A stretch of 41,953 bases of DNA, from assembly GCA_012269555.1 (NCBI GenBank), contig JAAXKA010000101.1, forward strand, positions 1-41,953, read 5' to 3'. The number at the start of each line of letters is the position of its first letter. Positions within the stretch are counted from its first letter, which is position 1. The translations under genes and the position numbers were made by a program. Positions 3,418 to 27,380 of this stretch are shown here, piece by piece. The notes beneath the pieces are model-generated. The model was not told where the DNA came from. It saw only the letters and a program-made list of their open reading frames with translations, and did no database searches. This stretch comes from Alphaproteobacteria bacterium. GTDB taxonomy: Bacteria > Pseudomonadota > Alphaproteobacteria > Puniceispirillales > Puniceispirillaceae.

Positions 3418-3426
3418 TATCGATAA
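3418..3426. promoter_or_regulatory. Candidate operator TATCGATAA (copy 1)
   Basis: TATCGATA palindrome followed by A in the 56-nt gap upstream of the minus-strand epimerase/crotonase genes, about 35 nt before the start codon. Looser inverted arms TGCAAAT (3396-3402) and ATTTGCA (3434-3440) flank it. It is the first of five intergenic copies. The role is inferred from recurrence and position. Confidence 0.5.
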
Positions 3427-3444
3427 TTTTTTTATTTGCAAGTG

Positions 3445-4203
3445 TTATGAACTTAAAATTAATGCAATACCAAGACAAAATAGAACAGCATAGGTAATAT
3501 ATCTGAAATAAATTTCAGACACTATATCAAAGAGGAATATTCCGGTCCTTAACCCGATTGAAAGAGGAACAGACAATAACAATCCCAAGGTAAGAAATCT
3601 TGAGTCAAAACCTTCTACAAAAATAAAATATGCAAAAAAAGATAATATCGTGAAAATAATTACTAATTGAATATTACTTTGAATAACATTTTTTTCAACT
3701 GGGGAAGATAGAAAATAAATTCCGGTAAATGGCCCAGTAGGCACCCCAAAAAACCCTGAGAAAAGTCCTGTTATCCAGCCAAACCCAAGTGAGATAAATC
3801 TTGTTTGCGGACCATTGTACCTCCATCCAGAAAATAAAATTAACGTTCCTACAAGAATAAAGATACCCATGTAAAAAGTGATTTCTGAAATTTCATTTTG
3901 AAAAAGAAAGTTTAGCCCAATGAAGGCTCCAATACATAGTCCCAAACTGTAAAAAAGAGTGATCCTTTTTTGAGAATATTTTACAGCCCTTCTTATTGTA
4001 AAAGTAACTCCCACTAAACCTGATAAGATAATGATGTTCATTCCAGGGATAGGTCCAAGAAGAAGAGTATAGCAAGGCAACATAAATAATGACCCTGCAA
4101 AACCAGTAAATCCTCGGACAACCCCTCCAAGAAAGGCAATTAAAACACAGGTTAACAGAGTGGTTAATTCCAGCTCAAACAATTCAAAAATTCCGATGGT
4201 CAT
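3445..4203 (-). CDS. TauE/SafE family membrane transporter
   Basis: The 252-aa protein is strongly hydrophobic with about eight predicted membrane segments. The family hallmark GGVVRGFTGFAGSLFMLP is near the N-terminus and a second inner repeat, GLFSGFFGVPTGPF, near residue 165. TauE/SafE proteins are inner-membrane permeases, often exporters of sulfite, sulfonates or other small organic anions. AGGA sits just before the ATG. The gene is divergent from the cyclase operon and lies upstream of the epimerase/crotonase genes on the same strand. A second TauE-type gene lies at 24520-25266. Substrate unknown. Confidence 0.85.
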   Translation of the reverse strand: MTIGIFELFELELTTLLTCVLIAFLGGVVRGFTGFAGSLFMLPCYTLLLGPIPGMNIIILSGLVGVTFTIRRAVKYSQKRITLFYSLGLCIGAFIGLNFLFQNEISEITFYMGIFILVGTLILFSGWRYNGPQTRFISLGFGWITGLFSGFFGVPTGPFTGIYFLSSPVEKNVIQSNIQLVIIFTILSFFAYFIFVEGFDSRFLTLGLLLSVPLSIGLRTGIFLFDIVSEIYFRYITYAVLFCLGIALILSS

Positions 4204-4391
4204 ATTCCTAAACAGGGAGAAAAATTTGTTAGTCGTTTGTACTTATATCGTGCAGGTGAAGTTATTAATAGTTGTTTTTTACTCTGGAAGTAGATTAACA
4301 TTTTTTCAAATAAACCAGATAATTAATTGTGCATTGTTAATCGGTTGCTAGTAGAAATACTTGTTTTATTCTAAAATAGAGGGAGAAGGAA

Positions 4392-5363
4392 TTGACAAAA
4401 AAGAAAATTACCAGAGAGGATTTAAGCATAGCAGCTGAAAAGTATAAAAATTGGGGTAAATGGGGAGCGAATGACGAAATAGGCACCTTAAATTATACTA
4501 CAGCAAATGATATTGTCGAAGCATCAAGGCTAGTTAATCAAGGCAAAGTAATCTCTCTTGCTTTAAATTTTGACTCTAGTGGTCCTCAAGGTGCTAAATC
4601 TAAATATCAATCATTAGGCAGAATAAACCCACTTCATACAATGTTGAGAACCGGAACTGATGCTTATTCTGGTGTTCTCGACCAGCGTGGTATTCGAGCG
4701 GCAGACGATATGATTGTAATGCCACTTCAATCTGGGACCCAATGGGATGGTCTCGGACATGTATTTTACGAAAATTATATGTGGAATGGATATGATTGCA
4801 GAGAGGTGACTTCTTCAGGTGCTCAAAAATGTGGAATAGAGAAAACCAAAAATAAAATGGTGGGTCGAGGCGTTTTGCTTGATGTTCCCAGAGAAATGGG
4901 GGTTGCGCGACTTGAGGATGGTTATGGTATCACATGCGAAGATTTGGATAGAACTGCTAAATCTCAGCAGGTAGAAATTAAACGTGGAGATTATGTTATT
5001 GTTCGTACTGGCCAGATGGAAGAAATGCTTAAGGCCGGCAGTTGGGATGGTTACCCAGGAGGTGATGCACCAGGGTTTGCCTTTGAGACGCTAGACTGGC
5101 TGCAAGAAAAAGAAATTTCTGCAATAGCATCAGATACTTGGGGATGCGAAGTGCGACCCAATGAAGCAGAAGAGGGTATCAACCAACCGTGGCACTGGAT
5201 TACAATTCCTATAATGGGGATCACAATGGGTGAGATATTTTTTCTTGGTGATTTAGCATCAGATTGTGCAAGTGATGGGATTTACGAATTTATGTTTGTT
5301 GCGCCTGCGTTGCCGATTACGGGTGCAGTTGGTTCCCCTACTAATCCGCTTGCTATAAAATAA
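4392..5363 (+). CDS. Cyclase family protein (PF04199, kynurenine-formamidase-like fold)
   Basis: The 323-aa protein starts at TTG with GGGAGAAGGA directly upstream. The family metal/catalytic motif is HxGTHxDxPxH; here it reads QSGTQWDGLGH at residues 113-123, keeping D119 and H123 but with Gln at the first two His positions and Leu for Pro. GTQWDG variants occur in this family, so this is a divergent rather than a broken enzyme. SDTWGCEVRPN and a late His-rich segment (QPWHW) also fit. Family members hydrolyse amides or lactones or cyclise polyketides. It is the first gene of a four-gene plus-strand group. Confidence 0.85.
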   Translation: MTKKKITREDLSIAAEKYKNWGKWGANDEIGTLNYTTANDIVEASRLVNQGKVISLALNFDSSGPQGAKSKYQSLGRINPLHTMLRTGTDAYSGVLDQRGIRAADDMIVMPLQSGTQWDGLGHVFYENYMWNGYDCREVTSSGAQKCGIEKTKNKMVGRGVLLDVPREMGVARLEDGYGITCEDLDRTAKSQQVEIKRGDYVIVRTGQMEEMLKAGSWDGYPGGDAPGFAFETLDWLQEKEISAIASDTWGCEVRPNEAEEGINQPWHWITIPIMGITMGEIFFLGDLASDCASDGIYEFMFVAPALPITGAVGSPTNPLAIK

Positions 5364-5422
5364 AGTGATGGGTGAGAATCCTGCTAACTTGAATTTAGTT
5401 AAACATAATGGAACTTTAAAAA

Positions 5423-7099: not shown

Positions 7100-7153
7100 T
7101 TTTATATAATCCGTGAAATTATGTTAGATACTTAAAAGCTACAGGAGAATTTT

Positions 7154-8335
7154 TTGAGATATCCCAGTATAGACAAAGATAACTATCCACTTGGTTTTTT
7201 ATTCATTAATGGAAACGAACAACCGAGTATTGTAAAGGGCGGTAGCGGTAAAACAACCTTTAAGACCCATGCCAGACAAATGGCATTATTCCAGAAAGAA
7301 GCGCTTGTTCAAGAAGGCGAGAGAGGCAGCAGATGGAGGCTTTCATCAGATGAAGGAAAACATCTTTCTGGGACTGACCTCGCTCCATTTCCTCTTGGTT
7401 TTTTTAATGCTGCTCTTCATGGTGATTTGATTGGACGAATTCGTCATTTTGCAAATGTTGATAACCTAGATATCAAACAAATAGATATGGAAGTGTCTAA
7501 TTTTTACTACATGACTGGCTCTTTTGTAAAAGGGGATGCAGCAGGACATGCAGAGCCTCCTTTAATTGAAATATCTTTTAGTGCAAAAGCAAACCCGGAA
7601 GAGATAAACCAGATAGTTGCAAAAGCTTTATTGGCCTCCCCATTTATCTATGGCTATAAAAATGCCCTCCATAGTCGTTTTTCTTTGTTCATAAACGGGA
7701 CTCAAAAAAAACTCTCAAATTTGCCGAATTGTCCCGTGGACGCAGCTGAAGATCCCTTCATGATTTACAAGGCATCTCCTGCACCTAAAGAAGGTTTTAA
7801 ATTTATGGAGAACATAATCCGAAAAACAGGAACTGAATTAGAGGGTGAAATAACAAAAGCCCCAACCGGTACAACAACGAAAATTATTCGTAATATCTAT
7901 GGAGAAAGCCACAGTGATTTAAAATCAAGCAGAGTAATTGCTGATACGGTGCTTGGTCTTCCTGGAATGACACGCTTTGAGATTGGAAGTGACGAGGGCG
8001 GAAATACTGGCCCTTCTGGCTTAAGCCATCTATGCGCAGGCATATCTTTTTGCTTTTTAACACAGTTGCACAGATATATCGAACATCAAAAATTCTCTAT
8101 AAATAATATGCGTCTTACTCAGACAATTGACTTTGAAGTAAGTGAAGAGGAAAATATTAAAACTGGAAAGATGGCCGCAGTTGACACGCATCTTTTTATG
8201 AACGGTGAAGCCTCAGAAGAAGAATATGAAAGGCTTTTGGAATTATCTGCTAGGTCCTGTTATCTTCATGCGACCCTTGCAACACCATTAGAACCAAAAG
8301 TAGAAATTTGCTTAAATGGAAATTCTATTTCATAA
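7154..8335 (+). CDS. Tandem OsmC-like protein (two OsmC-type halves in one chain)
   Basis: The 393-aa protein starts at TTG with AGGAG 7 nt upstream. The N-half (about 30-190) and C-half (about 225-390) each show an OsmC-like pattern: a long helix after a glycine/proline turn, a strand segment, then a second helix (ALLASPFIYG in the N-half, LSARSCYLHATLATP in the C-half). OsmC/Ohr proteins are normally about 140 aa and dimerise; here the dimer seems fused. Cys294 (SHLCAG) and Cys369 (ARSCYL) in the C-half fit the two-cysteine peroxidase centre, whereas the N-half has no Cys at either position. The assignment rests on pattern recognition. It lies between the ThDP enzyme and the hydrolase. Confidence 0.68.
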   Translation: MRYPSIDKDNYPLGFLFINGNEQPSIVKGGSGKTTFKTHARQMALFQKEALVQEGERGSRWRLSSDEGKHLSGTDLAPFPLGFFNAALHGDLIGRIRHFANVDNLDIKQIDMEVSNFYYMTGSFVKGDAAGHAEPPLIEISFSAKANPEEINQIVAKALLASPFIYGYKNALHSRFSLFINGTQKKLSNLPNCPVDAAEDPFMIYKASPAPKEGFKFMENIIRKTGTELEGEITKAPTGTTTKIIRNIYGESHSDLKSSRVIADTVLGLPGMTRFEIGSDEGGNTGPSGLSHLCAGISFCFLTQLHRYIEHQKFSINNMRLTQTIDFEVSEEENIKTGKMAAVDTHLFMNGEASEEEYERLLELSARSCYLHATLATPLEPKVEICLNGNSIS

Positions 8336-9649: not shown

Positions 9650-10714
9650 TTAAAGCCCTAAAAGCTTTTCAGCGTTACCCCCAACAATTTTTGCAATATC
9701 CTCTTCAGTCAAGGAAGTGGTGCCCGTAACATGACCTATTGGGTCATCCTCTGCCATATCATACGGATAATCTGTACCCATTACAATTTTGTCAGAACCA
9801 TATATTTTAACCAGATAGTCCAACTGCTCATAAGTAAATACTACTGTATCAAAATATATTTTCTTTAAGTAGTCAGATGGCTTGTTCTTTATAATTTCAC
9901 GACAATCTGGACGAGCGCCCCAGGCGTGGTCTATTCGTCCTGCGTATGCTGGGAGGTATCCACCCCCGTGAACGGCAAGAATTTTCAAGCCTGGGTATCT
10001 TTCAAGAGTGCCATCAAAAATTAAATGATGAATTGCAACCGTTGTATCTAGGGGGTTTCCAATAACATTATTAAAATAGTGATTTAAGAAGCGGTCACCT
10101 TGAGGATATCCATTAGGATGCAAAACCATCAAAGTATCAAGCTTTTCTGCCATCTCCCACATTGGGTCTAGACTTCTGTCTGATAATTCAGAGCCGTTGA
10201 CTGAACCCAGTACCTGAAATCCTTTTAATCCTAATTCTTTGACTCCTCGTTCCATCTCTTTGGCAGCAGCATCTCCATCTTGCAGCGGCAAATGCCCAAG
10301 AGCTAGAAATCTATCAGGGCGAGATTGAGCAATTGAGGATAATTTATTGTTAATTGTTTGTATGGCTTTATGCCCAACAGAATTTCGAACTGAATAATAT
10401 GCCTGAAAGGGAACAGGAATAAGCACCTGCATATCGATACCTTGTCTATCCATATCGCGAAGACGTTGGTCTAAATCTGTTAGGTGGACGATTCTATCTT
10501 CTTGGTTTTGTTTTACATTTTGAGCGGTAGTACGCGGATTTGAATATCTAACAGCCGGTATAGCCATCGGATTTAAAATCCCGTCAACTAAATCATGTGC
10601 TTCCTGAACGTGTAAATGACAATGTGCATCAATTGTAAGACGTGAAGGGCGTGTTTCAGCTCCTGACTTGCCATGTTCTCTGGCAGCGGTTGCGCCATAA
10701 GGTCTTAATTCCAT
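9650..10714 (-). CDS. Amidohydrolase family 2 protein (ACMSD-type metal-dependent decarboxylase/hydrolase)
   Basis: The 354-aa protein has the N-terminal HxH metal motif in IDAHCHLHV, a mid-protein His in MVLHPNG, and the C-terminal Asp in GTDYPYDM, all typical of the amidohydrolase_2 family, which includes 2-amino-3-carboxymuconate-6-semialdehyde decarboxylase and gamma-resorcylate decarboxylase. GGAGG sits just before the ATG. It converges on the hydrolase operon across the shared terminator and diverges from the CoA-transferase genes. It probably acts on an aromatic-acid-derived or ring-cleavage intermediate, but no specific substrate can be assigned. Confidence 0.88.
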   Translation of the reverse strand: MELRPYGATAAREHGKSGAETRPSRLTIDAHCHLHVQEAHDLVDGILNPMAIPAVRYSNPRTTAQNVKQNQEDRIVHLTDLDQRLRDMDRQGIDMQVLIPVPFQAYYSVRNSVGHKAIQTINNKLSSIAQSRPDRFLALGHLPLQDGDAAAKEMERGVKELGLKGFQVLGSVNGSELSDRSLDPMWEMAEKLDTLMVLHPNGYPQGDRFLNHYFNNVIGNPLDTTVAIHHLIFDGTLERYPGLKILAVHGGGYLPAYAGRIDHAWGARPDCREIIKNKPSDYLKKIYFDTVVFTYEQLDYLVKIYGSDKIVMGTDYPYDMAEDDPIGHVTGTTSLTEEDIAKIVGGNAEKLLGL

Positions 10715-10838: not shown

Positions 10839-10847
10839 TATCGATAA
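10839..10847. promoter_or_regulatory. Candidate operator TATCGATAA (copy 2)
   Basis: Palindrome plus A in the 248-nt divergent gap between the amidohydrolase (minus) and CoA-transferase (plus) genes, about 116 nt before the latter start and 125 nt from the former. It could serve either promoter. The rest of this gap is A/T-rich with no gene recognised. Confidence 0.45.
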
Positions 10848-10962: not shown

Positions 10963-11838
10963 ATGGTAGATAAAATAATGACTGCTCAACAAGCAGTGAA
11001 AAAATACGTAAATAATTCTGATATGGTTTTTGTTGGTGGTTTTGGTCATGCAATTCCATTTTCAATAGCGCAGGAAATCGTTCGTCAAAAAAAATATGGC
11101 CTGCACTTGATAAAAACTGGGGCTGATATCGTCTTCGATATGCTGGTTGCAAGTGGTTGTGCCCAACGTTTAACGTGTGGTTGGTATGGCAATCCAGGCA
11201 TGGGCATGAGTAATGTTATTAGACAGGCGGTTGAGTCAGACACACTTGAATTGATCGAAAGCACAAATTTTTCAATGATGTTGCGCTTACATGCAGGAAA
11301 ACTTGGCGTACCGTTTATTCCTTCTCCTATTCTTTCCGATGGCGATCTTGCACACACAGTTTCAGGAATAAAATCTATAAAGTGTCCGTTTACAGATGCT
11401 GAAATCCAAGCTCATGGTTCCTTAAATCCCGATGTTGCTATCGTTCATGCACAACGCTCCGATGTAAATGGCAACGTGCAACTATGGGGCTCTATTGGCG
11501 ATACTGTAGATGGATGCGAGGCATCAAAAAAAATTATTTGTTCCGTTGAAGAGATTTGCCGAGATGATGAAATTGCTCTTATGCCTCATCTTACAAAATT
11601 ACCAGCACACAAAGTTGTTGCCGTCATAGAGCAACCCTTTGGGGCCTATCCTTCCTATTTACATGGTTTCTATCAAAGAGATGAAAAATATTATGCAGAC
11701 CATAGTATCAATACCAAAGATGCTTTAAAAACAGAGGAATGGCTTCAATCAACTATTTACAATCATAATGATTTTAATAGCTATCTTCAAAGCCTACCAG
11801 ATGACTTATTAAAAAAGCTAGAATGGACTAATTCATGA
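10963..11838 (+). CDS. CoA-transferase family I, subunit A (GctA/AtoD-like)
   Basis: The 291-aa protein opens like family I CoA-transferase alpha subunits: MTAQQAVKKYV followed by a glycine-rich VFVGGFGHAIP, with later segments HAQRSDVNGNVQLWG and ACPV-like CSVEEI. Two starts are possible, ATG at 10963 or 10978; neither has a strong SD, and the longer is kept. It overlaps subunit B by 4 nt (ATGA). Such pairs transfer CoA to glutaconate, 3-oxoacids and similar acids. The related IpdAB-type proteins open rings in steroid breakdown, so a hydrolase role is possible. Confidence 0.87.
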   Translation: MVDKIMTAQQAVKKYVNNSDMVFVGGFGHAIPFSIAQEIVRQKKYGLHLIKTGADIVFDMLVASGCAQRLTCGWYGNPGMGMSNVIRQAVESDTLELIESTNFSMMLRLHAGKLGVPFIPSPILSDGDLAHTVSGIKSIKCPFTDAEIQAHGSLNPDVAIVHAQRSDVNGNVQLWGSIGDTVDGCEASKKIICSVEEICRDDEIALMPHLTKLPAHKVVAVIEQPFGAYPSYLHGFYQRDEKYYADHSINTKDALKTEEWLQSTIYNHNDFNSYLQSLPDDLLKKLEWTNS

Positions 11839-12593
11839 AAACTAAGATAGTGAACGAAGGTGCTCAGAAACAAAAAATATCAGATGATTCGATTTCACAA
11901 ACAAGAGCAGCTTTCATGGCATCCAGTGAAATCTTAGAGTGTAAAACAATTTTTGTTGGCATTGGATTGCCATGTTTAGTTGCTCACATAGCCCAGAATT
12001 ATACATCACCAAACTGTCACCTTGTGTTTGAGTCAGGACTAATGGAGGTAATGTGCAAAACACAACCTTTATCTACTGCAAGCGCAAATATTGCAAAAAC
12101 TTCAAAAATGCATGGTTCTATGCTGGATGTATTCAGTATGCTCCAGAGAGGCGAGATTGATGTTGGTTTATTATCTGCAGCTCAAATAGATGTGAACGGA
12201 AACCTTAACAGCAGCAAGCTCACAACAAAATCTGGAAAAACTATATCATTACCAGGCTCAGGAGGAGCTCACGATATTTCGGTGTTGGCAAATAAAGTAG
12301 TTGTTGTTATGCCATCTGACCCAAGACGCTTTGTAAATAATGTTGATTTCATCACTTCTCCAAATATGCCATATGGTGATAGAAAGGGTGTGGTTGGCGT
12401 TGCTATGCCAGATGCATATTTCAGCTTCAAAGCAGGAAAGGCTGTCTTACAAAAAATTTATTCTGATAGGAGTGCTGAGGAAATCAGAACCTCTTTAAAT
12501 TGGGATGTGGAAATCTCGTCAACACTAGAAAGGATTGATCCGCCGTCAAATAGACTACTAGAGGGTGCGGATATATTTTTACAGAATAATTAA
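11835..12593 (+). CDS. CoA-transferase family I, subunit B (GctB/AtoA-like)
   Basis: The 252-aa beta subunit has FVGIGLPCLVAHIAQ near residue 40, VFESGL with candidate catalytic Glu66, and the family-typical RGEIDVGLLSAAQIDVNGNLNSS in mid-protein, followed by GSGGAHDIS. The ATGA overlap with subunit A implies coupled translation and a heteromeric enzyme. Having Glu in the ESG segment favours transfer through a glutamyl-CoA intermediate, though IpdB-like hydrolases have a similar fold. No terminator is visible downstream. Confidence 0.87.
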   Translation: MKTKIVNEGAQKQKISDDSISQTRAAFMASSEILECKTIFVGIGLPCLVAHIAQNYTSPNCHLVFESGLMEVMCKTQPLSTASANIAKTSKMHGSMLDVFSMLQRGEIDVGLLSAAQIDVNGNLNSSKLTTKSGKTISLPGSGGAHDISVLANKVVVVMPSDPRRFVNNVDFITSPNMPYGDRKGVVGVAMPDAYFSFKAGKAVLQKIYSDRSAEEIRTSLNWDVEISSTLERIDPPSNRLLEGADIFLQNN

Positions 12594-12684: not shown

Positions 12685-12693
12685 TATCGATAA
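12685..12693. promoter_or_regulatory. Candidate operator TTATCGATAA (copy 3)
   Basis: Ten-base palindrome at 12684-12693, about 40 nt before the ATG of the lactonase-like gene at 12733. A weak promoter-like pair, TGGACA (12643) and TACACC (12665), would put the site just downstream of transcription start. The promoter is tentative. Confidence 0.48.
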
Positions 12694-12732: not shown

Positions 12733-13626
12733 ATGACTATCAAAGATTGTATAGCACCAGATAGAAACCCACGAAAACCCAGCATAACCCTGCCGACCGG
12801 CAGTATTGATACACATGTACATATTTTTGAGAGTCATTTCCCCTTATTTGAAGGAAGAGGATACAATCCACCAGATTCTACATTGGAAGATTTAATACAT
12901 CTTCACCAAACACTTGGAATAGATAGAGTTGTTTTTACTCAGCCATCTGTTTATGGAGTAGATAATTCGGCCATTTTAAAAGGAATGAATGTTTTAAACG
13001 AAAAGATTCCAAACAAAGCACGTGGTGTTTGTGCCATTAAAATGGATGCGTCTGAAAATTTCCTTCAGGAATTGCATGAACAGGGCATTAGAGGAGTTAG
13101 ACTTAATCTAGATAACAAGGGCGGAATGCCGCTTGAACTGAAAGAGATTTCAAAACTTGAAGATAAAATAAAAGGCCTTGGTTGGCATTTAGAGTATTTG
13201 TTTCCAGGCAAAGATATTGTGGAACTAGAGCCGGTGCTCTCTAATGCATCTGTTCCCATATCAATAGGTCACTTTGCATATCAACCTGCTACGGCTGGTA
13301 TCAATTCAGATGGATTCAAAACATTATTGAAGCTTGTAAAAGATGGAAATACATGGATTAAAATATCAGGAGCTAACCGCGTAAGTGAGACAGATCTTCC
13401 ACCTTATGATGATGTTTTGCCAATGGCCAGAGCACTTGTTGAAGCTAATTCTGATAATGTAATGTGGGGTACAGACTGGCCTCATCCAAATAAATATGAA
13501 GTAAATCCAAATGATGGAGACCTGGTAAATTGGTTTGGGGAATGGATAACTGATGATACCATGCGAAAGCAAATTATGGTTACCAATTCAGAATTATTTT
13601 ATGATTTTGGTGATTATCACGGGTAA
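12733..13626 (+). CDS. COG3618-type amidohydrolase/lactonase (LigI- or sugar-lactonase-like)
   Basis: The ATG at 12733 is preferred over an in-frame TTG at 12721, because GGAGAGAG (12723-12730) is the ribosome site and would otherwise be coding. The 297-aa product has HxH in SIDTHVHIFE, DRVVFTQPSVYG, and the terminal metal Asp in MWGTDWPHP. This is the branch containing 2-pyrone-4,6-dicarboxylate lactonase and L-fucono-lactonase. Because an SDR and an IlvD/Edd dehydratase follow, hydrolysis of a sugar lactone or similar is the favoured inference; an aromatic pyrone lactone is the alternative. Confidence 0.83.
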   Translation: MTIKDCIAPDRNPRKPSITLPTGSIDTHVHIFESHFPLFEGRGYNPPDSTLEDLIHLHQTLGIDRVVFTQPSVYGVDNSAILKGMNVLNEKIPNKARGVCAIKMDASENFLQELHEQGIRGVRLNLDNKGGMPLELKEISKLEDKIKGLGWHLEYLFPGKDIVELEPVLSNASVPISIGHFAYQPATAGINSDGFKTLLKLVKDGNTWIKISGANRVSETDLPPYDDVLPMARALVEANSDNVMWGTDWPHPNKYEVNPNDGDLVNWFGEWITDDTMRKQIMVTNSELFYDFGDYHG

Positions 13627-18916: not shown

Positions 18917-18920
18917 TTTT

Positions 18921-18929
18921 TATCGATAA
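18921..18929. promoter_or_regulatory. Candidate operator TTATCGATAA (copy 4)
   Basis: Ten-base palindrome at 18920-18929 over the predicted start site of the ABC importer transcript, 44 nt before the ATG. An imperfect dyad around TGTACA follows at 18931-18950. The position fits a repressor site; the regulator is unknown. Confidence 0.5.
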
Positions 18930-18972: not shown

Positions 18973-19764
18973 ATGGCTGCTACAGCTAAGAAAAAAGCGA
19001 AGAAATCATCATTTGGCCAAACTGTTATAGAAGGAAAAAACGTAACAAAAATTTTCGGTGAAACAGTTACCGCACTTGAAGGAGCTGACTTCAACATTAA
19101 AGCAGGCGAATTCATCTCTCTCGTAGGCCCCAGCGGATGCGGAAAATCTACACTTCTTCGTTTAGTGGCAGGATTAATCGAAAAAACTAGTGGTGATTTA
19201 ACAGTTAATAATGAGGTTGTGACAAAACCACGAACAGATATTGGAATGATGTTTCAGAAAGCTGTGCTGCTTGATTGGAGAACCGCTATTGAAAACGTTC
19301 TTCTTCCATCAGAAATACAACACCGAATCACACAAGACGATAAAAATAAAGCGATGGCGTCACTAGATTTGGTAGGCCTGAAAGGCTTTGAATTTCACTT
19401 TCCAAAACAATTGTCCGGTGGAATGCAGCAACGAGTCGCACTAGCACGACTTATCCAAACTGGCGCAAATATTATGTTGATGGACGAGCCCTTTGGAGCG
19501 CTAGACGAATTCACTAGGGAGCGTCTAAATATTGAGCTAGAGCGTATTGTTGGTGAATTAAAAGCAACAACCCTATTTGTCACACACAATATTCAAGAAG
19601 CAATTTTTCTAGCTGATCGAGTATTAGTTATGACACCCCGGCCAGGAAGAATTGCAAAAATTATTGATGTAGAATTTGACCGACCAAGAGATATCTCCAT
19701 ACAGACCAGCCGTGAGTTTAATATCATTGTTGAAGAAGTCAGAGATACACTCGGAGGACATTAA
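18973..19764 (+). CDS. ABC importer ATP-binding subunit (nitrate/sulfonate/taurine type)
   Basis: The 263-aa ATPase has Walker A GPSGCGKST, Q-loop MMFQKAVLLDWRT, signature LSGGMQQR, Walker B IMLMDEP followed by FGALDE, and H-loop FVTHN. The Leu-Leu-Asp-Trp-Arg Q-loop pattern is typical of the SsuB/TauB/NrtD/ThiZ group. The start has AGGGGGAA 5-8 nt upstream. A lysine-rich N-terminal extension of about 15 aa precedes the domain. It energises the two permeases encoded directly downstream (4 nt gap). Confidence 0.95.
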   Translation: MAATAKKKAKKSSFGQTVIEGKNVTKIFGETVTALEGADFNIKAGEFISLVGPSGCGKSTLLRLVAGLIEKTSGDLTVNNEVVTKPRTDIGMMFQKAVLLDWRTAIENVLLPSEIQHRITQDDKNKAMASLDLVGLKGFEFHFPKQLSGGMQQRVALARLIQTGANIMLMDEPFGALDEFTRERLNIELERIVGELKATTLFVTHNIQEAIFLADRVLVMTPRPGRIAKIIDVEFDRPRDISIQTSREFNIIVEEVRDTLGGH

Positions 19765-19767
19765 AAG

Positions 19768-20625
19768 ATGTCATATTCAACAACAGATCAGACTAAACAT
19801 ATTAGTATTTTTAAAACGCTTCCATTTCATTTGCTAATTTTCGCAGGTCTTATTCTTTTGTGGGAAATGGTTAATCTTTATGGATTTGAAGACCAAATTC
19901 AAGCGGACATGATAGCGCCTAGGCCTACTAATATAGTACTAGCAATGATTGATATTTTTATCATTGACCAAACAGTTTGGAAACACCTCATATCTACGTT
20001 TCAAAAAGCTCTCCTTGGAGCAAGTATAGGAACGGCGATTGGGATGGGACTCGCAATATCAGCAACGTTAAGTTTAACATTTAGGAAATACATCAAGCCA
20101 TGGATTATTCTTATGGAGGCTACACCTAGAATTGCTGTTGGCCCTATTTTTGTAGCTCTATTGGGATTTGGTTTATGGGCTGCTGTAGCCTTAGCTGCCC
20201 TAGTTGCCTTTTTCGGCCCCTTTGTAAATACCTTCCAGGGACTTATGGAGATAGATGAAGAAGCCGAAGAAATGTTTCGTTCTTTGGGCGCTTCACGATT
20301 CCAAACGTTCTGGAAGCTAAGATTCGCATCTGCTATGGAATTGATTTCTGCTGGTTGGAAGCTTGCAACTGCCTCTGCTTTTGGGGGAGCATTAGTTGCA
20401 GAATTTATTCAAGCCAGTGAAGGCATGGGAGTTTTAATCTCTCAATATGTCATAATGATAACCATGGATTATGCCTTCGCAGCACTTCTTTCAGTAACTA
20501 TCTTTGGTTTCATTTTATTTAAGATAATGGATTTTTTGGATTATCGTCTGATTTTTTGGAAAAATGATCTTCTCCTGCTTAAAGAAAGTGAAAAAAGAAG
20601 AAAGAAAGCAGGTATTGTATCATGA
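19768..20625 (+). CDS. ABC importer permease subunit 1
   Basis: The 285-aa protein has about six membrane segments. The EAA-loop region reads EEAEEMFRSLGASRFQTFWK around residues 155-175, typical of SsuC/TauC-type permeases, and ends in a basic tail (KESEKRRKKAG). It overlaps the second permease by 4 nt (ATGA), giving coupled translation and suggesting a heterodimeric membrane channel. Confidence 0.92.
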   Translation: MSYSTTDQTKHISIFKTLPFHLLIFAGLILLWEMVNLYGFEDQIQADMIAPRPTNIVLAMIDIFIIDQTVWKHLISTFQKALLGASIGTAIGMGLAISATLSLTFRKYIKPWIILMEATPRIAVGPIFVALLGFGLWAAVALAALVAFFGPFVNTFQGLMEIDEEAEEMFRSLGASRFQTFWKLRFASAMELISAGWKLATASAFGGALVAEFIQASEGMGVLISQYVIMITMDYAFAALLSVTIFGFILFKIMDFLDYRLIFWKNDLLLLKESEKRRKKAGIVS

Positions 20626-21458
20626 AAACAATGAACTTTATAATATCGTTTTTAAAATACTCCCTTAGCTTTGTCATTGTATTGGGATTATGGGAAGCAT
20701 ACGCACGTTATGGCGGGCTAAATGAATTATTCTTGCCACGACCCTCCAAAATTGGTGATAAGCTCTATAATTTATTTTTCAAATTTGAAGTTATAGAACA
20801 GGGTACTATTTATTGGCACTTTTTTGCAACATTGGCACAGATGTCAATTGGCTTTTGTTATGGAATAATTATAGGAAATACCCTTGCTGTTTTAGCGGCT
20901 TTTAATGAGACATTTAGAAGATATATAGCACCATATGCGGTTGTATTTAATGTTACCCCAGGCATTGCTGTCCTGCCTTTAATAATTGCCTGGTTTGGAT
21001 TTGGATGGGAGTCAAAAATTGCTTTAGCAACATTAGTTTGTTTTTTTCCACCTTTTATTAATACATTGACTGGTTTATTGAAAAAAAATGATGAGGCTAT
21101 TGAATTATTTCAAACAATTGGCGCAACTCATTCACAATATTTTTGGAAGCAACAGCTTCCAAACGCCCTTCCAGAAATTTTTGCTGGGCTTAAACTTGCA
21201 ATTACCACAGCATTACTTGGAACTATCGTAGCACAATTTGGGTCAGCTACAGAGGGTGTTGGAATTCTAATGCAGCGATTTGCATTCCGGTTAGATATGG
21301 CTGGTTCATTTGCTTCATTAGTTACGATGGCAATCATGGGACTTTTAGTTTTCACTATTGCAGAAGTCTTGGATAGACGTATTGTTTTTTGGAGAGATAC
21401 CAAAGGATTAGAGCGTGTTTCCAGAAAGAAGCAAAGAAAACTATCGTCTAATGATTAG
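20622..21458 (+). CDS. ABC importer permease subunit 2
   Basis: The 278-aa six-segment permease has EAA loop DEAIELFQTIGATHSQYFWK around residues 150-170. It is clearly homologous to, but diverged from, the permease encoded just upstream. Relatives of the taurine/sulfonate importer usually have one permease gene working as a homodimer, so two adjacent genes imply a heterodimer. The C-terminus is basic (RVSRKKQRK). Confidence 0.92.
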   Translation: MKTMNFIISFLKYSLSFVIVLGLWEAYARYGGLNELFLPRPSKIGDKLYNLFFKFEVIEQGTIYWHFFATLAQMSIGFCYGIIIGNTLAVLAAFNETFRRYIAPYAVVFNVTPGIAVLPLIIAWFGFGWESKIALATLVCFFPPFINTLTGLLKKNDEAIELFQTIGATHSQYFWKQQLPNALPEIFAGLKLAITTALLGTIVAQFGSATEGVGILMQRFAFRLDMAGSFASLVTMAIMGLLVFTIAEVLDRRIVFWRDTKGLERVSRKKQRKLSSND

Positions 21459-21471
21459 CCATTATAAGGGG

Positions 21472-21490
21472 AAGCCTTATTTTAAGGCTT
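21472..21490 (+). other. Intercistronic hairpin before the binding-protein gene
   Basis: Perfect inverted repeat AAGCCTTA (21472-21479) / TAAGGCTT (21483-21490) with a 3-nt loop and no long T-run. It lies between permease 2 and the binding-protein gene, 28 nt before the latter start. Such stems can stabilise mRNA ends or partly terminate transcription; the function here is inferred. Confidence 0.6.
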
Positions 21491-21517
21491 TGTAATTGAG
21501 CGTAAAGGGAGAGAAAT

Positions 21518-22567
21518 ATGCTTAAAAAAATATTGGCAACCGCATTAGCTGTTGCTGTAATATCGCCCATGTCAGCTATGGCTGGTGGACATTTAGATAA
21601 AATCACTATTATACAACCATCATATCCTTCAATGATTTTCTGGCCATCACACATTAGTGCTCAGCTAGGCTTTTATGAGGAAATGGGAGTAGACCCAACT
21701 TATCTAGATGGTGACACAACTGTACCTTATCAGGCTTTTCTTTTAAATGGACAAGCTGATTTTGCAATGCTTGATGGACCGCAAGTTTTCCAAGGTGCAT
21801 CCGCTAATATGGGTCTAAAGACTGTATATTCAGTTCACAGTTCAGCACCAGAGGGTGTTTATGTAAGTGACGATAGCCCACTTCAGAGCGTAACAGAACT
21901 TAAGGGTAAGACTGTTGGTCTAGCATCTGACCGTGACCTTGCATCTCTAAAAGTTGCAATGGCACACGCTGGTTCAAACATTGATGGTGTAAGCACTGTT
22001 GTTGTTGGTGACGCCGGCCCAACATTAGCAAACGTGTTCCTAAAAGGAACAGCTGCTGCATTTGCTGGTTCAATTTCTGACTTGGCCGCACTTGCAACAA
22101 AAGGTGTTGTGGTTAGAGATATCACACCTCCATCTGCAAAAGTCGCTCCTGCGAATACATATGCTGTAAATGGTGCAACTATGATGGATAACTATGACAA
22201 ATATTGTCGTTTCTTAAAAGCATACTCAATGGGTGTTCACGTTGGTCAGTACAACTTGGATATTATTGCAGCTATGTCAAAAGCAAAAGATGGCGCTCCT
22301 CATCAGTGGGAAGTTGAAGAAGTAGGTAATTCATACCTTAAAGCAGTTGCAAAGCTTCAATTGCCACCAGCAGGTGATACATCCTATGGCTTAGTTGCAG
22401 AGTCAGCATGGTTGACTGTTAACAATGATATGAAGATGATTGGCGCTGTTGATGAAGATTACAACACTAATGATTATCTTTCACACGTGTTTGAAGGTTG
22501 TGCAAACAACTTTGACCGTGCAGCAGTTGAAGCAGCTGCTGATGCATGGATGGCTAAAAACGGCTAA
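21518..22567 (+). CDS. ABC importer periplasmic binding protein, NMT1/THI5-like
   Basis: The 349-aa protein has a Sec signal peptide (MLKKILATALAVAVISP, likely cut after AMA near residue 22). The mature part has the NMT1/SsuA-type layout: FWPSHISAQLGFYEEMGVDP, then DFAMLDGPQVFQ and ELKGKTVGLASD. GGGAG precedes the ATG. It would capture the ligand in the periplasm for the upstream permeases. The family binds sulfonates, pyrimidine (thiamine precursor), riboflavin or aromatic acids; no thi genes are nearby, so the ligand is left open. It ends the operon before a strong terminator. Confidence 0.9.
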   Translation: MLKKILATALAVAVISPMSAMAGGHLDKITIIQPSYPSMIFWPSHISAQLGFYEEMGVDPTYLDGDTTVPYQAFLLNGQADFAMLDGPQVFQGASANMGLKTVYSVHSSAPEGVYVSDDSPLQSVTELKGKTVGLASDRDLASLKVAMAHAGSNIDGVSTVVVGDAGPTLANVFLKGTAAAFAGSISDLAALATKGVVVRDITPPSAKVAPANTYAVNGATMMDNYDKYCRFLKAYSMGVHVGQYNLDIIAAMSKAKDGAPHQWEVEEVGNSYLKAVAKLQLPPAGDTSYGLVAESAWLTVNNDMKMIGAVDEDYNTNDYLSHVFEGCANNFDRAAVEAAADAWMAKNG

Positions 22568-22622: not shown

Positions 22623-22652
22623 ATGATAGTAACTTAATCTTTTTATCAATTA

Positions 22653-23522
22653 TTAAATCACTGGATTTGTTAGAGAACCTAATCCAGTAACATTGATGGT
22701 AACCTTATCCCCTGATTTTAGAAACTTTGGTGGTGAAAAACCTATACCCACTCCAACTGGCGTTCCAGTTGCAATTACATCACCTGCAAGCAACGTTCCT
22801 GTTAGAGTTAATGTTTCAATTAATGTTGGTATATCAAAAATTAGGTCCCGGACTTCTGCCTGCTGCCGGATCTCATCATTTACAAGTGTCTGGATCTGCA
22901 TAGATGGCAGATCGTCGATTTCATCTTTGGTAACTATATAAGGTCCCATCGGCCCAAATGTGTCCAGACCTTTACCTATTGTCCATTGATTATGTTTTTT
23001 TTGTAATTCTCGTGAAGTTACATCATTAATTATAACATATCCAAAAACATAATCCTGCCAATCGTCTTTAGCGACACGACGAGCGGTCTTACTAATTACC
23101 ACACCAAGCTCTCCCTCATAATCAACTGAACCAGTTGGGTCTATTGAAGTGTCAATAGCATCATCTGGACCAATTAGGGATGTCATAGCCTTAGTGAAAA
23201 TTATGGGCTCTGATGGAATAGTCTCTTTCTGGGTTGCATCAAAACCTGAATCAAAAAACTCCTTGGCATGAGCATAATAATTTTTACCTACGCAAATCAT
23301 ATCTCGCAACAAGTAAGGTATTGGCGCCAATATTTTTATTTCACTTAGTTTTTTCCTGGGAGCAATCTCTAACATTGCTTGCCATTCAGATATATTACCA
23401 GAACTTATCATAGCTAAAACAGCTGTAGTTGCATTTTTGCTTTCATCACAGCAGACAAACTCTTCTCCCACTATCATTCCTGCTTTAATTTTACCATTAT
23501 CAGATATAGTTGCGAGTTTCAT
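22653..23522 (-). CDS. Fumarylacetoacetate hydrolase (FAH) family protein
   Basis: The 289-aa protein has a short N-terminal domain and a FAH catalytic domain: MICVGKNYYAHAKEF, metal-binding SVDYEGELGVVI (E and D ligands), WTIGKGLDTFGPMGP, and GDVIATGTPVGVG. AAGGAG precedes the ATG. Members hydrolyse or decarboxylate acyl-pyruvates and include 2,4-diketo-3-deoxy acid hydrolases of sugar-acid pathways. Because the window also holds an IlvD/Edd dehydratase and an SDR, cleavage of a diketo acid is possible. It is divergent from a beta-hydroxyacid dehydrogenase gene. Confidence 0.9.
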   Translation of the reverse strand: MKLATISDNGKIKAGMIVGEEFVCCDESKNATTAVLAMISSGNISEWQAMLEIAPRKKLSEIKILAPIPYLLRDMICVGKNYYAHAKEFFDSGFDATQKETIPSEPIIFTKAMTSLIGPDDAIDTSIDPTGSVDYEGELGVVISKTARRVAKDDWQDYVFGYVIINDVTSRELQKKHNQWTIGKGLDTFGPMGPYIVTKDEIDDLPSMQIQTLVNDEIRQQAEVRDLIFDIPTLIETLTLTGTLLAGDVIATGTPVGVGIGFSPPKFLKSGDKVTINVTGLGSLTNPVI

Positions 23523-23567: not shown

Positions 23568-23576
23568 TATCGATAA
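23568..23576. promoter_or_regulatory. Candidate operator TTATCGATAA (copy 5)
   Basis: Ten-base palindrome at 23567-23576 in the divergent gap between the FAH gene (minus, start 46 nt away) and the dehydrogenase/TauE genes (plus, ATG 81 nt away). For the minus strand it overlaps the -35 region of a possible promoter whose -10 is TATAGT. Confidence 0.5.
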
Positions 23577-23656
23577 ATGTGAAAATAATAATATTCTCGA
23601 TCAGGGTTTTAATAGATAAATTAAACATCAACCTCAAATTAAAAAACGGAGTAATC

Positions 23657-24523
23657 ATGAGTGTAGGAATAATAGGGCTTGGTGCAATGGGTGGAGCTTA
23701 TGCGCGTAACTTATTGGCTGGCGGAATCGCTGTTCATGGATTTGATCCAGACCCATCAGCACAAAAAATGCTAACAGAGGCTGGTGGAACTCCGCAATCT
23801 GATTATGGAGACTGGTTGCGTGACTGTGAGATGATTATATTATCAATAGCAAGCACTCAGATTCTTGCTGATTCAATTAATAAACTTTGTAAAATACTGA
23901 AACCAGGTCAGGTTGTTCTTGAAACAGGCACTTTTACTCTTGATACAAAGCAAGCAGCAAAAAATGACTTGGATAACTGTGGTGCAGTCTTACTTGATTG
24001 TCCAGTAAGCGGAACTGGTGCTCAAGCCGCGGTCGCGGACCTTGTTATGATGGCGAGCGGTCCTGAAAATAGCTATTTAAAAATAGCTCCCCTACTTGAG
24101 CATTTTACGAAAAAAGTAATTTATGCTGGTCCATTTGGAAATGGATCAAAGTTAAAATTTGTAGCAAACCATGCTGTCTATGTCCATAATTGTGCCGCTG
24201 CAGAAAGTTTAAATTACGGGGTCTCACTTGGCCTAGATCCCAAAATGATATTTAAATTACTATCAAACGGAGCTGGGCAGTCAAAAATGTCCGATTTGCG
24301 TATGCCACTAATGATAGATCATGCTTACGAACCAGCCACAGCTAATATGCCAATTGCGTATAAAGATATATCTGTAATAAGTGAAGATATAAAGAGTAAT
24401 AATTGCTCTACACCACTTTTTGATGCTACCCAAAAACTATATGACATAGCTAAAGAAAATGTTCCAGCTACATATGATACCGGCGCAGTTTACGAAGTTT
24501 ATAGGCAAAAATTAGTTAAATGA
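23657..24523 (+). CDS. NAD-binding beta-hydroxyacid dehydrogenase (3-hydroxyisobutyrate dehydrogenase family)
   Basis: The real start is ATG at 23657 with CGGAG upstream; the longer reading from 23579 adds a non-homologous leader. The 288-aa product has the Rossmann motif GIIGLGAMGGAYARNL, a substrate motif around DCPVSGTGAQAA (usual DAPVSGG form), and the catalytic lysine in GNGSKLKFVANH. It oxidises a 3-hydroxy acid or reduces a semialdehyde. It overlaps the following TauE gene by 4 nt (ATGA), so the two form an operon, divergent from the FAH gene. Confidence 0.88.
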   Translation: MSVGIIGLGAMGGAYARNLLAGGIAVHGFDPDPSAQKMLTEAGGTPQSDYGDWLRDCEMIILSIASTQILADSINKLCKILKPGQVVLETGTFTLDTKQAAKNDLDNCGAVLLDCPVSGTGAQAAVADLVMMASGPENSYLKIAPLLEHFTKKVIYAGPFGNGSKLKFVANHAVYVHNCAAAESLNYGVSLGLDPKMIFKLLSNGAGQSKMSDLRMPLMIDHAYEPATANMPIAYKDISVISEDIKSNNCSTPLFDATQKLYDIAKENVPATYDTGAVYEVYRQKLVK

Positions 24524-25266
24524 TTTTTGAACCATATGGTTACTTGACTATAGCCTCAATAATGTTTGCCTTAGTGCTTTCTGGAAGTGTAAAGGGAATA
24601 TTTGGAATTGGTTTTCCTGTTGTTGCCATGGCAACACTACCTTTATTCATTACTCCCATTACAGCCATAACAGTGATTGCATTGCCAATTGTTGTAACTA
24701 ATATCCAGCAGCTTTTTTCCGAAAAAAAATGGAAACACATCATTTATAAATATAGGTATATGGCAATTTTTATGATGTTAGCTAGTTTCTTATCTAGTCA
24801 AATACTAACCCAAATATCGGTGGATCTCATCACTGCTATAATTGGTTTTGCTCTTGCATTATTTGCAATTTACAGTTTGTTCAATTTCACACTTCCAATC
24901 AACACCCAACCCATTTGGCAGATCTTCGCCGGAGCTAGTTCTGGACTTCTGAGCGGAATGACTGGCATTCAATCTACTGCTATTATTTATTTTGCCTCAT
25001 TAGATATAGACAGGGATGAATTTGTTGGTGCCGTTGGGTATATTTTTTTGGTAGGTGGGTTGGGCCTTAGCATTGGTCTTATCAACAATAATATGCTAAA
25101 TTCAAATTCAGCTGTTCTCAGTATAGGAGCTATTTTGTTTAGCGTAGTAGGATTCAAATTAGGCTCCCTACTACGCCCTTATATTGGGTCAGAATTATTT
25201 AAAAAAATGCTTTTTGTTATGATGCTTTTAATCGGCATCAAACAAATATATCAGTTTTTTGTTTAA
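24520..25266 (+). CDS. TauE/SafE family membrane transporter (second copy)
   Basis: The 248-aa protein has about eight membrane segments and the family repeats GSVKGIFGIGFPVVAMATLP near the start and GASSGLLSGMTGIQ in the middle. It is likely a small-anion permease or exporter. The ATGA overlap with the dehydrogenase gene links transport with oxidation of the same or a related compound (inference). It is distinct from the TauE gene at 3445-4203. Confidence 0.86.
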   Translation: MIFEPYGYLTIASIMFALVLSGSVKGIFGIGFPVVAMATLPLFITPITAITVIALPIVVTNIQQLFSEKKWKHIIYKYRYMAIFMMLASFLSSQILTQISVDLITAIIGFALALFAIYSLFNFTLPINTQPIWQIFAGASSGLLSGMTGIQSTAIIYFASLDIDRDEFVGAVGYIFLVGGLGLSIGLINNNMLNSNSAVLSIGAILFSVVGFKLGSLLRPYIGSELFKKMLFVMMLLIGIKQIYQFFV

Positions 25267-25281
25267 TTCCTTTTTTACTTA

Positions 25282-26274
25282 TTATAACTCTACAACCTCC
25301 CCTTTTTCAGCAGATTTGATAATCGCATTTAAAACTTCTATATTATGCATCATTTCAAAATTTTTATTTAAATATTCTGTGCCATTAGTAATTGCTGAAG
25401 CCCAATTCTCAAGATTAGCTGATACAGAATCCGACCAATCATAACGAGTTGTATTTGTATCTTCCAGAGAATGATAAACCTGTAAATCTGCTACACCTGA
25501 GGTTTCATCAGGATGGGTACTATTTCTAACTTCTGCCCACATCTTTGACCCAAAAATATGTGTTCTAAGGAAATGAGGAGTATGAAGAATAGCCTGTATA
25601 TTTGCTGTCATGCCAGCTTCGAATAATAGCTGAACAACCACAACATCGCCGGTCTCCCATCCAAGAGAGCGACTTGAGGTATTGGCATAAACTGATTTCA
25701 CTTTTCCAAAATACCAAATTAAAATATCCGTAAGATGAATGCCCATCTGTGTCATGCCAGCAGCTGGGGCAAATTCTTTTGTTGTTCTCCAGCTTCCAGG
25801 TGGAAGATGGATTAATTTATCATGGCTAAATGCTAATTCAGCATGCATTATGTTTCCAAATGCATTTTCATCTAGAAGACGTTTAATTTCCATAACAGCT
25901 GGTTCAAATCTGCGCTCATGTCCAATTCCCAAGACAAGCCCTGCCTTTTCACACGCTTTTACACTATTTCGAGCACCCTCAAACGTAAGTGAAAGCGGCT
26001 TTTCGCAAAAAACATGTTTTCCTTCCGCGACGCATTGCGCAATTTGTGAGTCATGAAAATCATTTGGCGATGTAAGAATAAGGGCGCTCACATTTTTCAT
26101 TTTTACAGCTTCGTCAAAATCTAAAATAGGTTTTAACCCCATCTCTTTAATGTCGCTATGTACATCTGAATTTGGTTCAACGACACACACTAATTCAAAC
26201 AAACTATTTTCTTTTAGTCTTGAGGCTATGGTTCGACCCCACCAACCAAACCCGACAAGTGCTACTGATAACAT
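25282..26274 (-). CDS. Gfo/Idh/MocA family oxidoreductase
   Basis: The 330-aa protein has the N-terminal Rossmann motif LVGFGWWGRTIASRL and the family hallmark EKPLS (HVFCEKPLS, about residue 94), then the C-terminal alpha/beta domain with a candidate His in MTQMGIHLTDILIWY. Members are NAD(P)-dependent sugar, inositol or amino-sugar dehydrogenases. AAGGA precedes the ATG. It lies 13 nt downstream of another dehydrogenase gene on the same strand. Confidence 0.9.
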   Translation of the reverse strand: MLSVALVGFGWWGRTIASRLKENSLFELVCVVEPNSDVHSDIKEMGLKPILDFDEAVKMKNVSALILTSPNDFHDSQIAQCVAEGKHVFCEKPLSLTFEGARNSVKACEKAGLVLGIGHERRFEPAVMEIKRLLDENAFGNIMHAELAFSHDKLIHLPPGSWRTTKEFAPAAGMTQMGIHLTDILIWYFGKVKSVYANTSSRSLGWETGDVVVVQLLFEAGMTANIQAILHTPHFLRTHIFGSKMWAEVRNSTHPDETSGVADLQVYHSLEDTNTTRYDWSDSVSANLENWASAITNGTEYLNKNFEMMHNIEVLNAIIKSAEKGEVVEL

Positions 26275-26287
26275 TTAAAATCCTTTC

Positions 26288-27163
26288 CTAAAATTTACTG
26301 CTACGCCAAGCGGCTAGCAAAGAGGCATCATGGACTGCCCAACCATCTTCTGCTGCATCTTCAGCAGTTTTACGTGCCGCATCAATAATAGGGCTCTCAA
26401 AACCCATTGATTGAGCAGTGCCAACCATTAGTTTCATATCTTTAATCGCGTTAAACATCGTAAAGTTTGAGGCTGCTGACTGGCCTTCTTCAATCATTTC
26501 TAATATTGGCTGGCATCTTACTTTTGCTGCTCCAATGGCCCCTGAACTATCTACCAATATGCTCATAGCCTGTTCTGCGGGAATATCTTTTTTTGTTGCC
26601 ATCGCTACAGCTTCTCCTAAAGCCCCCCAGTAGACCATCAAAGGTAAATTAATTGCTAGTTTCATAGCGGCAGCAGCACCAGTATCACCAAGATACTCTA
26701 TTCTTCTGGTGATTTGCTTTAAAATAGGTTCAGCACGGTCAAATGCATCCTTGTCCCCTGCCACCAGCCCTAATAGCGTTCCCTCTCTTGCAGGCTTGAC
26801 AGTGCCTCCCACTGGGGCTTCAACAAATTGCCCACCTTTTTCTTTAACCGAATTTTCAAGCTCAACAGCACGTTCTGGTGAAGTTGTACATATTTCAATT
26901 ATCAATTTTCCGTGAAGTGATATGCTGGTTAAACCACCCTCATCAAAATAAGCTGCCTGAGTCGCATTATCATTTGCTAAAATGGAAATAATTATATCTG
27001 CAGATGATGCGACTTCTGCAGGATTAGAGGCAACTGTAACACCTTTTAGGTCAGATATTTTTTCTAAAGAGCGGTTCCAAACTATAAGCTCGTTACCTGT
27101 TTCCATAAGACGCTCACAAATTGCACGCCCCATCTTACCAACGCCTATTAATCCGAGTAACAT
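26288..27163 (-). CDS. Beta-hydroxyacid dehydrogenase, 3-hydroxyisobutyrate dehydrogenase family (second copy)
   Basis: The 291-aa protein has Rossmann motif GLIGVGKMGRAICERL, substrate motif EAPVGGTVKPA, and catalytic Lys in AAAMKLAINLP. AAGGAG sits 8 nt before the ATG. It likely works as a 2-hydroxy-3-oxopropionate (tartronate semialdehyde) or 3-hydroxyisobutyrate-type dehydrogenase. It is co-directional with the Gfo/Idh/MocA gene and differs clearly from the copy at 23657. Confidence 0.9.
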   Translation of the reverse strand: MLLGLIGVGKMGRAICERLMETGNELIVWNRSLEKISDLKGVTVASNPAEVASSADIIISILANDNATQAAYFDEGGLTSISLHGKLIIEICTTSPERAVELENSVKEKGGQFVEAPVGGTVKPAREGTLLGLVAGDKDAFDRAEPILKQITRRIEYLGDTGAAAAMKLAINLPLMVYWGALGEAVAMATKKDIPAEQAMSILVDSSGAIGAAKVRCQPILEMIEEGQSAASNFTMFNAIKDMKLMVGTAQSMGFESPIIDAARKTAEDAAEDGWAVHDASLLAAWRSSKF

Positions 27164-27360
27164 AGTTTAAACTCCTTGTTTAATAACACATAAAATTATA
27201 CTAATTTGTTAAACTAATTGGAAACATAAAGATAAAAAATTTTTTATATAGTTTTTTTATTTAGGGGAGTTTATTACACTGCCATCAAAGATGAAGCTGA
27301 CTTCTGCTTCGCAACTTGATTGCTATGCTATTCAAAAGCGTTTAATACAACATAACAGAT

Positions 27361-27380
27361 ATAAATTATTGATAATTTAT
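27361..27380. promoter_or_regulatory. 20-bp palindrome containing TATTGATAA (variant operator, copy 6)
   Basis: ATAAATTAT-TG-ATAATTTAT: nine-base arms are perfectly complementary around a TG centre. Its core TATTGATAA differs from the recurring motif by one base. It lies 78 nt upstream of the flavin reductase gene in the 294-nt divergent gap 27164-27457, where I see no other gene. Confidence 0.45.

Follow-up and report, generated by a model that had tools for sequence, protein, structure and literature searches.

Introduction

In Alphaproteobacteria, biotin genes are repressed by the FadR-type GntR protein BioR, some of whose targets carry tandem boxes (PMC4554459); the box is given as TTATMKATAA (PMC4494728). 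The operators of GntR/FadR proteins are usually palindromes with GT...AC boxes (TKGT/ACMA), to which BioR is described as an exception (PMC4494728). A second box, AwATATCGATATwT, comes from a study of aph and bph genes in Betaproteobacteria, in which AphS and BphS repress phenol and biphenyl catabolic genes (PMC6449761); BphS is assigned to the GntR family (PMC10282184). CceR-type global carbon regulators of Alphaproteobacteria are described as single factors acting on many dispersed carbon-metabolism genes (PMC11323563). Here we analyze a 10-bp palindrome, TTATCGATAA, and its near-exact forms in positions 1-41953 (the window) of a contig of 48862 bases (JAAXKA010000101.1) from the draft genome of a SAR116 bacterium. 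The sites are concentrated in the gaps between genes and are conserved at orthologous places in related species. On balance we consider the palindrome to be the operator of one dimeric regulator over about a dozen transcription units in a single SAR116 genus, with low confidence in the part of this reading that makes the regulator a repressor.

The palindrome matches the BioR consensus exactly, with C at M and G at K. Both are 10-bp palindromes of Alphaproteobacteria, and the tandem boxes of BioR have a counterpart here in tandem copies 19 bp apart. The two systems differ in their targets, which are bio operons for BioR and about a dozen dispersed, mostly catabolic or transport units here. No biotin gene was recognized among the recurrent targets that were read, four of whose proteins had no family at 1e-10, and bio genes elsewhere were not searched for. 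They also differ in that bioR is itself a BioR target, whereas the gaps at GntR loci of five genomes held no box. The AphS/BphS box has the TATCGATA core in common with our motif, and the genes that it represses are catabolic. The 3417 and 10838 sites, which read ATATCGATAA, also show the likeness. The letters outside TATCGATA are unlike, and there are several sites per gene in the AphS/BphS system, compared to mostly single sites here. The initial annotation, made from the sequence of the window, named no known factor for the motif. This can be refined for the box, which fits that of BioR and resembles that of AphS/BphS, and still stands for the protein, none having been tied to the site. As for CceR, one factor is proposed here for many dispersed carbon-metabolism genes; the CceR motif is probably different from the motif described here. 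Among the open-access papers listed, we found no description by title of this regulon or operator (TTATCGATAA, TATCGATA or ATATCGATAT). Genus-level regulons of this kind are familiar; the targets and the organism are new so far as that literature was searched.

Results

Near-exact copies are concentrated in intergenic gaps

There were six copies of the 8-mer TATCGATA in the window, starting at 3418, 10432, 10839, 12685, 18921 and 23568, compared to a mean of 0.39 in dinucleotide shuffles, and none of 100 shuffles had six or more. Five of the six are extended by an A to the 9-mer TATCGATAA, and all five are intergenic by our own hexamer-based gene calls, which do not derive from an annotation. 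Both the count and the gene calls agree with the positions given in the initial annotation. A first-order Markov model of the 3249 intergenic bases predicted 0.03 such 9-mers on either strand. The full 10-mer TTATCGATAA was present at three of these five sites (12684, 18920 and 23567), and the sites at 3418 and 10839 have the 10-letter form ATATCGATAA. The remaining 8-mer, at 10432, is probably a chance copy. A near match at 27367, reported earlier as differing by one base, reads TTATTGATAA. From the genome's own density, 0.88 9-mers and 0.24 10-mers would be expected in the window, where five and three were present (P = 0.002 for each). The gaps of the housekeeping half hold no copies, as had been noted; in fact TATCGATA is wholly absent past 23575, genes included.

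The source genome is a draft of 2.47 Mb in 247 contigs (completeness 95.7%, contamination 6.85%), and 9.8% of its fetched DNA is intergenic. The exact 10-mer was intergenic at 9 of its 14 sites there. As a control, we took 19 further palindromes with the same letter composition; of their 20 occurrences in loci of the genus, 4 were intergenic. Equal density in gaps and genes, proposed earlier as a test that would count against a regulon, was not what we observed, either in this genome or in the sister species described below. Within genes the motif is thus no more than background, and its enrichment is in the gaps.

The motif is conserved in orthologous gaps

We aligned the orthologous gaps of related genomes, counting the row of the window and leaving out gaps cut by contig ends. 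Loss of the motif from such gaps had also been named as evidence that would count against a regulon, and the motif was mostly kept. The core was retained in 4/4 genomes at 3418, 5/6 at 10839, 7/7 at 12685, 7/7 at 18921 and 9/9 at 23568, and the one-off form at 27367 in 4/5, where seven of its ten columns were invariant and three varied. The single loss at 10839, in the sister genome G041, breaks an invariant block. Outside the motif, the proportion of invariant columns ranged from 32-55% among the gaps. The longest block of invariant columns contains the motif at 18921 and at 23568 (19 columns at 23568), and the second longest contains it at 3418 (15 columns). At 12685 all ten motif columns were invariant, compared to 36% elsewhere in the gap, and a nine-column block that covers the greater part of the motif shares first place in length. 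Conservation of the motif in front of orthologous genes across several species, as expected of a regulon, was observed.

Intergenic placement is a property of the genus

The sister genomes are drafts labelled uncultured or metagenome-assembled. In six of them, representing six sister species in which all listed TTATCGATAA sites were classified, 50 of 68 sites were intergenic and 18 coding, with gaps making up about 10% of the DNA (intergenic/coding: G035, 11/2; G036, 7/0; G038, 7/2; G040, 9/3; G041, 8/8; G042, 8/3). For three more (G034, G037 and G039), two of the 25 listed sites were fetched, and both were intergenic. The pattern was reversed elsewhere in the family: in five genera, 5 sites were intergenic and 36 coding among 41 examined of 45 listed, including two in duplicated contig ends of one genome (G006). 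For these proportions (9/14 and 50/68 within the genus, 5/41 in the other genera) the Fisher p was about 2e-10, a value that is a guide only since orthologous sites are counted as independent. A family-wide regulon is therefore rejected as far as the family was sampled. In 70 non-genus loci, of 78 from a genome scan, TATCGATA was never found outside open reading frames (ORFs) of at least 100 aa, a weak negative because these loci are mostly distant homologues; 13 of the 70 hold it inside an ORF.

We also scanned a motif-blind sample of the sister genome G040 (800 kb, 754 gene calls) with a matrix built from the sites of the source genome, some of which are orthologous to the G040 matches. At 15 bits or more there were five intergenic matches and one coding match, compared to means of 0.5 and 2.1 for permuted matrices, and at 14 bits none of 30 permuted matrices reached the intergenic count. 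The five intergenic matches of at least 15 bits occupy four gaps: the cupin-TctC, MocA and BKACE/TRAP gaps and the region of the cyclic nucleotide (cNMP)-binding gene.

Candidate targets are mostly transport and catabolic genes

The sites and genes are listed in Table 1. That catabolic or transport genes adjoin the sites in the window was confirmed with Pfam. The NMT1/THI5-like binding protein of the importer operon is 90-98% identical in seven of nine sister genomes. Beyond the window, the motif recurred in at least two species in 11 further gaps, of which eight adjoin transport or catabolic genes. The source genome is counted in the genome numbers given for these eight. The families at these gaps are from Pfam where matched; the metallo-beta-lactamase (MBL)-like, RND, suc and flagellar labels and some transporter labels were assigned by eye from protein starts. 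Three sister species have a pair of TATCGATA copies in the cupin-TctC gap, at a distance of exactly 19 bp (L386:6438-6470; also L145, L163 and L180).

Table 1. Candidate operator sites, adjoining genes in the window, and further gaps in which the motif recurs. ABC, ATP-binding cassette; CoA, coenzyme A; FAA, fumarylacetoacetate; TRAP, tripartite ATP-independent periplasmic.
Feature	Position	Strand	Context, basis or occurrence
Candidate operator ATATCGATAA	3417-3426	.	in front of glyoxalase/crotonase unit (2942-3388 and 2095-2952, -), at a distance of about 30 bp
Glyoxalase-fold protein and enoyl-CoA hydratase	2095-3388	-	Pfam
TATCGATA, context TATCGATAC	10432-10439	.	within amidohydrolase gene 9650-10714; absent from the initial annotation
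Candidate operator ATATCGATAA	10838-10847	.	divergent gap, amidohydrolase 9650-10714 (-) / CoA-transferase 10963-11838 (+)
CoA-transferase, two subunits	10963-12593	+	Pfam
Candidate operator TTATCGATAA	12684-12693	.	before amidohydrolase 12733-13626 (+)
Amidohydrolase (Amidohydro_2)	12733-13626	+	Pfam; start from gene call
Candidate operator TTATCGATAA	18920-18929	.	before NMT1-type ABC importer operon 18973-22567 (+)
Importer operon: ABC ATPase, two permeases, NMT1/THI5-like binding protein	18973-22567	+	Pfam
Candidate operator TTATCGATAA	23567-23576	.	divergent gap, FAA hydrolase 22653-23522 (-) / 3-hydroxyisobutyrate-dehydrogenase-like 23657-24523 (+)
FAA-hydrolase-fold enzyme	22653-23522	-	Pfam
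3-hydroxyisobutyrate-dehydrogenase-like gene and TauE-family exporter	23657-25266	+	Pfam; start from gene call
Weaker candidate site TTATTGATAA	27366-27375	.	between dehydrogenase 26288-27163 (-) and flavin reductase 27458-27949 (+)
Molybdopterin dehydrogenase gene, site in front			exact 10-mer; 7 genomes
Peptidase S15/ABC divergon			exact 10-mer; 5 genomes
Second ABC importer			exact 10-mer; 5 genomes
Cupin-TctC gap			exact 10-mer; 4 genomes
MocA-type dehydrogenase			exact 10-mer; 3 genomes
EamA transporter			exact 10-mer; 2 genomes
MBL-like protein			exact 10-mer; 2 genomes
BKACE/TRAP divergon			one-off form; 2 genomes
suc-operon-like gap	L172:3623, L185:2121		10-mer in 2 sister species; gene names by eye
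Gap between flagellar-looking gene and neighbor	L074:2236, L146:3480, L162:3599		3 species; core inside AT-rich inverted repeat
cNMP-binding gene and RND gene region			3 genomes, one with one-off form

Discussion

A proposed mechanism

The gap placement and the conservation support the suggestion of the initial annotation that a shared regulator acts at these sites, and from them we infer one protein common to all. The perfect symmetry of the 10-bp site suggests that the protein binds as a symmetric dimer. In the mechanism that we propose, a dimeric DNA-binding protein encoded elsewhere in the genome would bind TTATCGATAA and control about a dozen scattered transcription units, most of them for uptake or breakdown of scavenged organic compounds. 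By analogy, and with low confidence, this protein might be a FadR-type GntR repressor that keeps RNA polymerase out and comes off the DNA when it meets a ligand; the repressor part is proposed on the ground that BioR and AphS/BphS, which have the nearest published boxes met in our searches, are GntR repressors. That the binding protein belongs to the GntR family we regard as possible, at somewhat less than an even chance.

Evidence against a single regulator, and alternative explanations

Several observations weigh against one regulator acting through this motif, and they are considered in this section together with the alternatives on which they bear. Some concern the background of the motif. 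The 8-mer occurs 81 times in the source genome, compared to 82 for its reversed control, so the signal sits in position and conservation. The 9-mer occupies 52 distinct sites, 34 coding and 18 intergenic; the five window sites belong to the 18, and outside the window 13 of 47 are intergenic. As a genome-wide marker the 9-mer is therefore weaker than had been hoped. The 10-mer total was 14, compared to 9 for the control. Because totals are near control and most 9-mers are coding, operators can be only a minority of the copies. Copies of the 10-mer with up to two mismatches were at chance in the window (35 vs 32.8 expected), which confines the signal to the near-exact form. In G041, half of the 10-mers (8/16) are coding. 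Matrix matches of 12 bits or less in the G040 sample showed little or no excess in gaps, with 6 intergenic and 13 coding matches at 12 bits (permuted, 3.5 and 14.6) and 13 and 59 at 10 bits (permuted, 9.7 and 46.6).

The near-control totals and the two-mismatch count are what one would expect if the repeats were chance products of AT-rich gaps. The excess in the window gaps over the Markov expectation and the conservation of orthologous gaps contradict such an origin, as do the composition-matched palindromes and the permuted matrices at 14 bits. We reject a chance origin, to which we attach a negligible probability.

Three of the recurrent gaps are out of keeping with a catabolic regulon: those of the suc operon, the flagellar-looking gene, and the cNMP-binding/RND region. 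The repeat that holds the flagellar-gap copy has the look of a terminator, not of an operator. This copy is a point in favor of a non-regulatory DNA signal, such as a methylase or nucleoid-protein site, a hairpin or an RNA element, and so is the fact that ATCGAT is a methylase target in other bacteria. The conservation of the motif is tied to particular genes, which argues against such a signal, and we consider it very improbable. For an RNA element in particular, there was no Rfam family at the window sites, and this candidate was rejected. The sole match in the window at the gathering threshold was a bacterial small signal recognition particle (SRP) RNA gene (RF00169, 47.5 bits) at 33838-33933, in the 33772-34078 gap.

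The assignment to the GntR family is weakened by the motif itself, which has TTAT/ATAA in place of the GT/AC boxes usual for that family. The direction of control is a further difficulty. Promoters were predicted with approximate E. coli weights. The 18920 site begins 3 bp past a predicted -10 (TTGATC-16-TACACT), and the 12685 site lies 11-13 bp past a predicted -10. The 23567 site, on the FAA-hydrolase side, and the 10839 site, on the CoA-transferase side, fall within predicted -35/-10 spacers; the 18920 and 23567 arrangements are in conserved stretches. These four placements would fit a repressor. We compared the site with the top-scoring predicted promoter on each of 22 target sides. At 11 the two overlap or the promoter ends at most 20 bp before the site, a number reached by 107 of 200 flank-shuffled sets, and at 8 of the 22 the promoter lies further downstream, as for an activator. 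Promoter position was given up as proof of repression, being at chance level across the target sides, and the case for repression consequently comes mainly from the nearest known boxes. The predicted promoters do not decide between a repressor and an activator.

The alternative to which we give the most weight, although we think it unlikely, is that the site serves an activator or a protein of dual function, such as one of the IclR or LysR type. The downstream promoters at 8 of 22 sides are consistent with it, and a LysR gene is present in the G040 sample. Of the 10 genomes of the genus, 8 have a single strong IclR match each, and these include all that are at least 90% complete. Its best NCBIfam match is BhcR (252 bits, below the cut-off of 350), and BhcR of Paracoccus is described as an activator (PMC11323563). 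Against an activator, TATCGATA is absent from the IclR loci, where the nearest looser look-alikes lie at least about 750 bp upstream or inside genes, and the sites at 18920 and 23567 overlap or follow the predicted core promoter. The E. coli IclR operator has TGGAAAT-type half-sites, unlike the motif here, and we count this against the alternative as well. At one of the IclR loci, TTATAGATAA, which also matches the BioR consensus, occurs at L257:332, about 1.1 kb upstream of the G037 IclR gene, with no gene called around it.

The search for the regulator also yielded points against a single protein. No near-exact motif was found upstream of regulator genes at 25 GntR, 18 MarR_2 and 8 IclR loci, and at one LysR gene and one Xre-like gene of the G040 sample, where two response regulators fell outside this comparison; LacI, TetR, Crp and AraC were covered by regular-expression screens, which are weak and short of a genome-wide search. 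The genus looks to have few regulators. Each of five genomes had 3 to 7 GntR matches, including a distant MntR-like protein, and there were few MarR matches, in four of five genomes. For each of the three common GntR genes, one or more of the sister genomes with the sites and with a completeness of at least 90% showed no copy; single absences could be explained by incomplete genomes. In another reading, the motif might be bound by a set of local regulators that are paralogues within one family. The diversity of the targets and the number of GntR matches per genome are in keeping with this. The motif was in no nearby gap at the GntR, IclR or MarR loci found, and a loose screen of 812 gene calls from loci of the genus, which would have missed divergent regulators, gave one convincing regulator, of the Lrp type. 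We judge paralogous regulators improbable.

The three GntR genes were considered as candidates for this regulator and set aside. GntR 'b' (L199) is in 5 of 10 genomes of the genus and was unseen in two site-keeping genomes of 92% completeness; its best matches in plasmid records are below 60% identity. GntR 'c' (L211) is in 7 of 10 (partial in G034) and looks like a local regulator because it adjoins an ABC cluster of its own; its nearest solved structures were uninformative. Within the family, this gene was seen outside the genus only as an 84% identical copy (L354) in G007, a member of another genus, and the likeness of the two suggests transfer between genera. GntR 'a' (L192), also in 7 of 10, is divergent from a MocA-type gene; its orthology was judged from frame length and identity, with alignments for part of the genomes, and its gap bears a different inverted repeat. 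This repeat, CGATA-n-TATCG in the FadR-type GntR/MocA-type gap (L189-L192, about 1700-1850), is present in G035 and imperfect in the others, and is a candidate local operator of the adjoining GntR regulator.

Implications for SAR116 bacteria

SAR116 bacteria are common ocean heterotrophs. Because the sister genomes are uncultured or metagenome-assembled drafts, hardly anything is known about the control of importer and catabolic genes in this group. A conserved candidate operator with about a dozen targets predicts genes that should move together, which could be read in metatranscriptomes, and provides a bait for the protein. Its likeness to BioR- and BphS-type boxes gives a concrete hypothesis about the family of that protein. 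The sites at the suc operon, if real, would link the regulator to the tricarboxylic acid cycle. More speculatively, and with little confidence on our part, one repressor with the operator of BioR, or a repurposed close relative, may run much of the scavenging metabolism of a regulator-poor marine genus. If true, a vitamin circuit would have been turned into a broad catabolic switch over several ABC, TRAP and tripartite tricarboxylate (TTT) importers and over CoA and hydrolytic enzymes. If one factor does span so many pathways, its ligand would reveal the cue by which these cells decide to scavenge.

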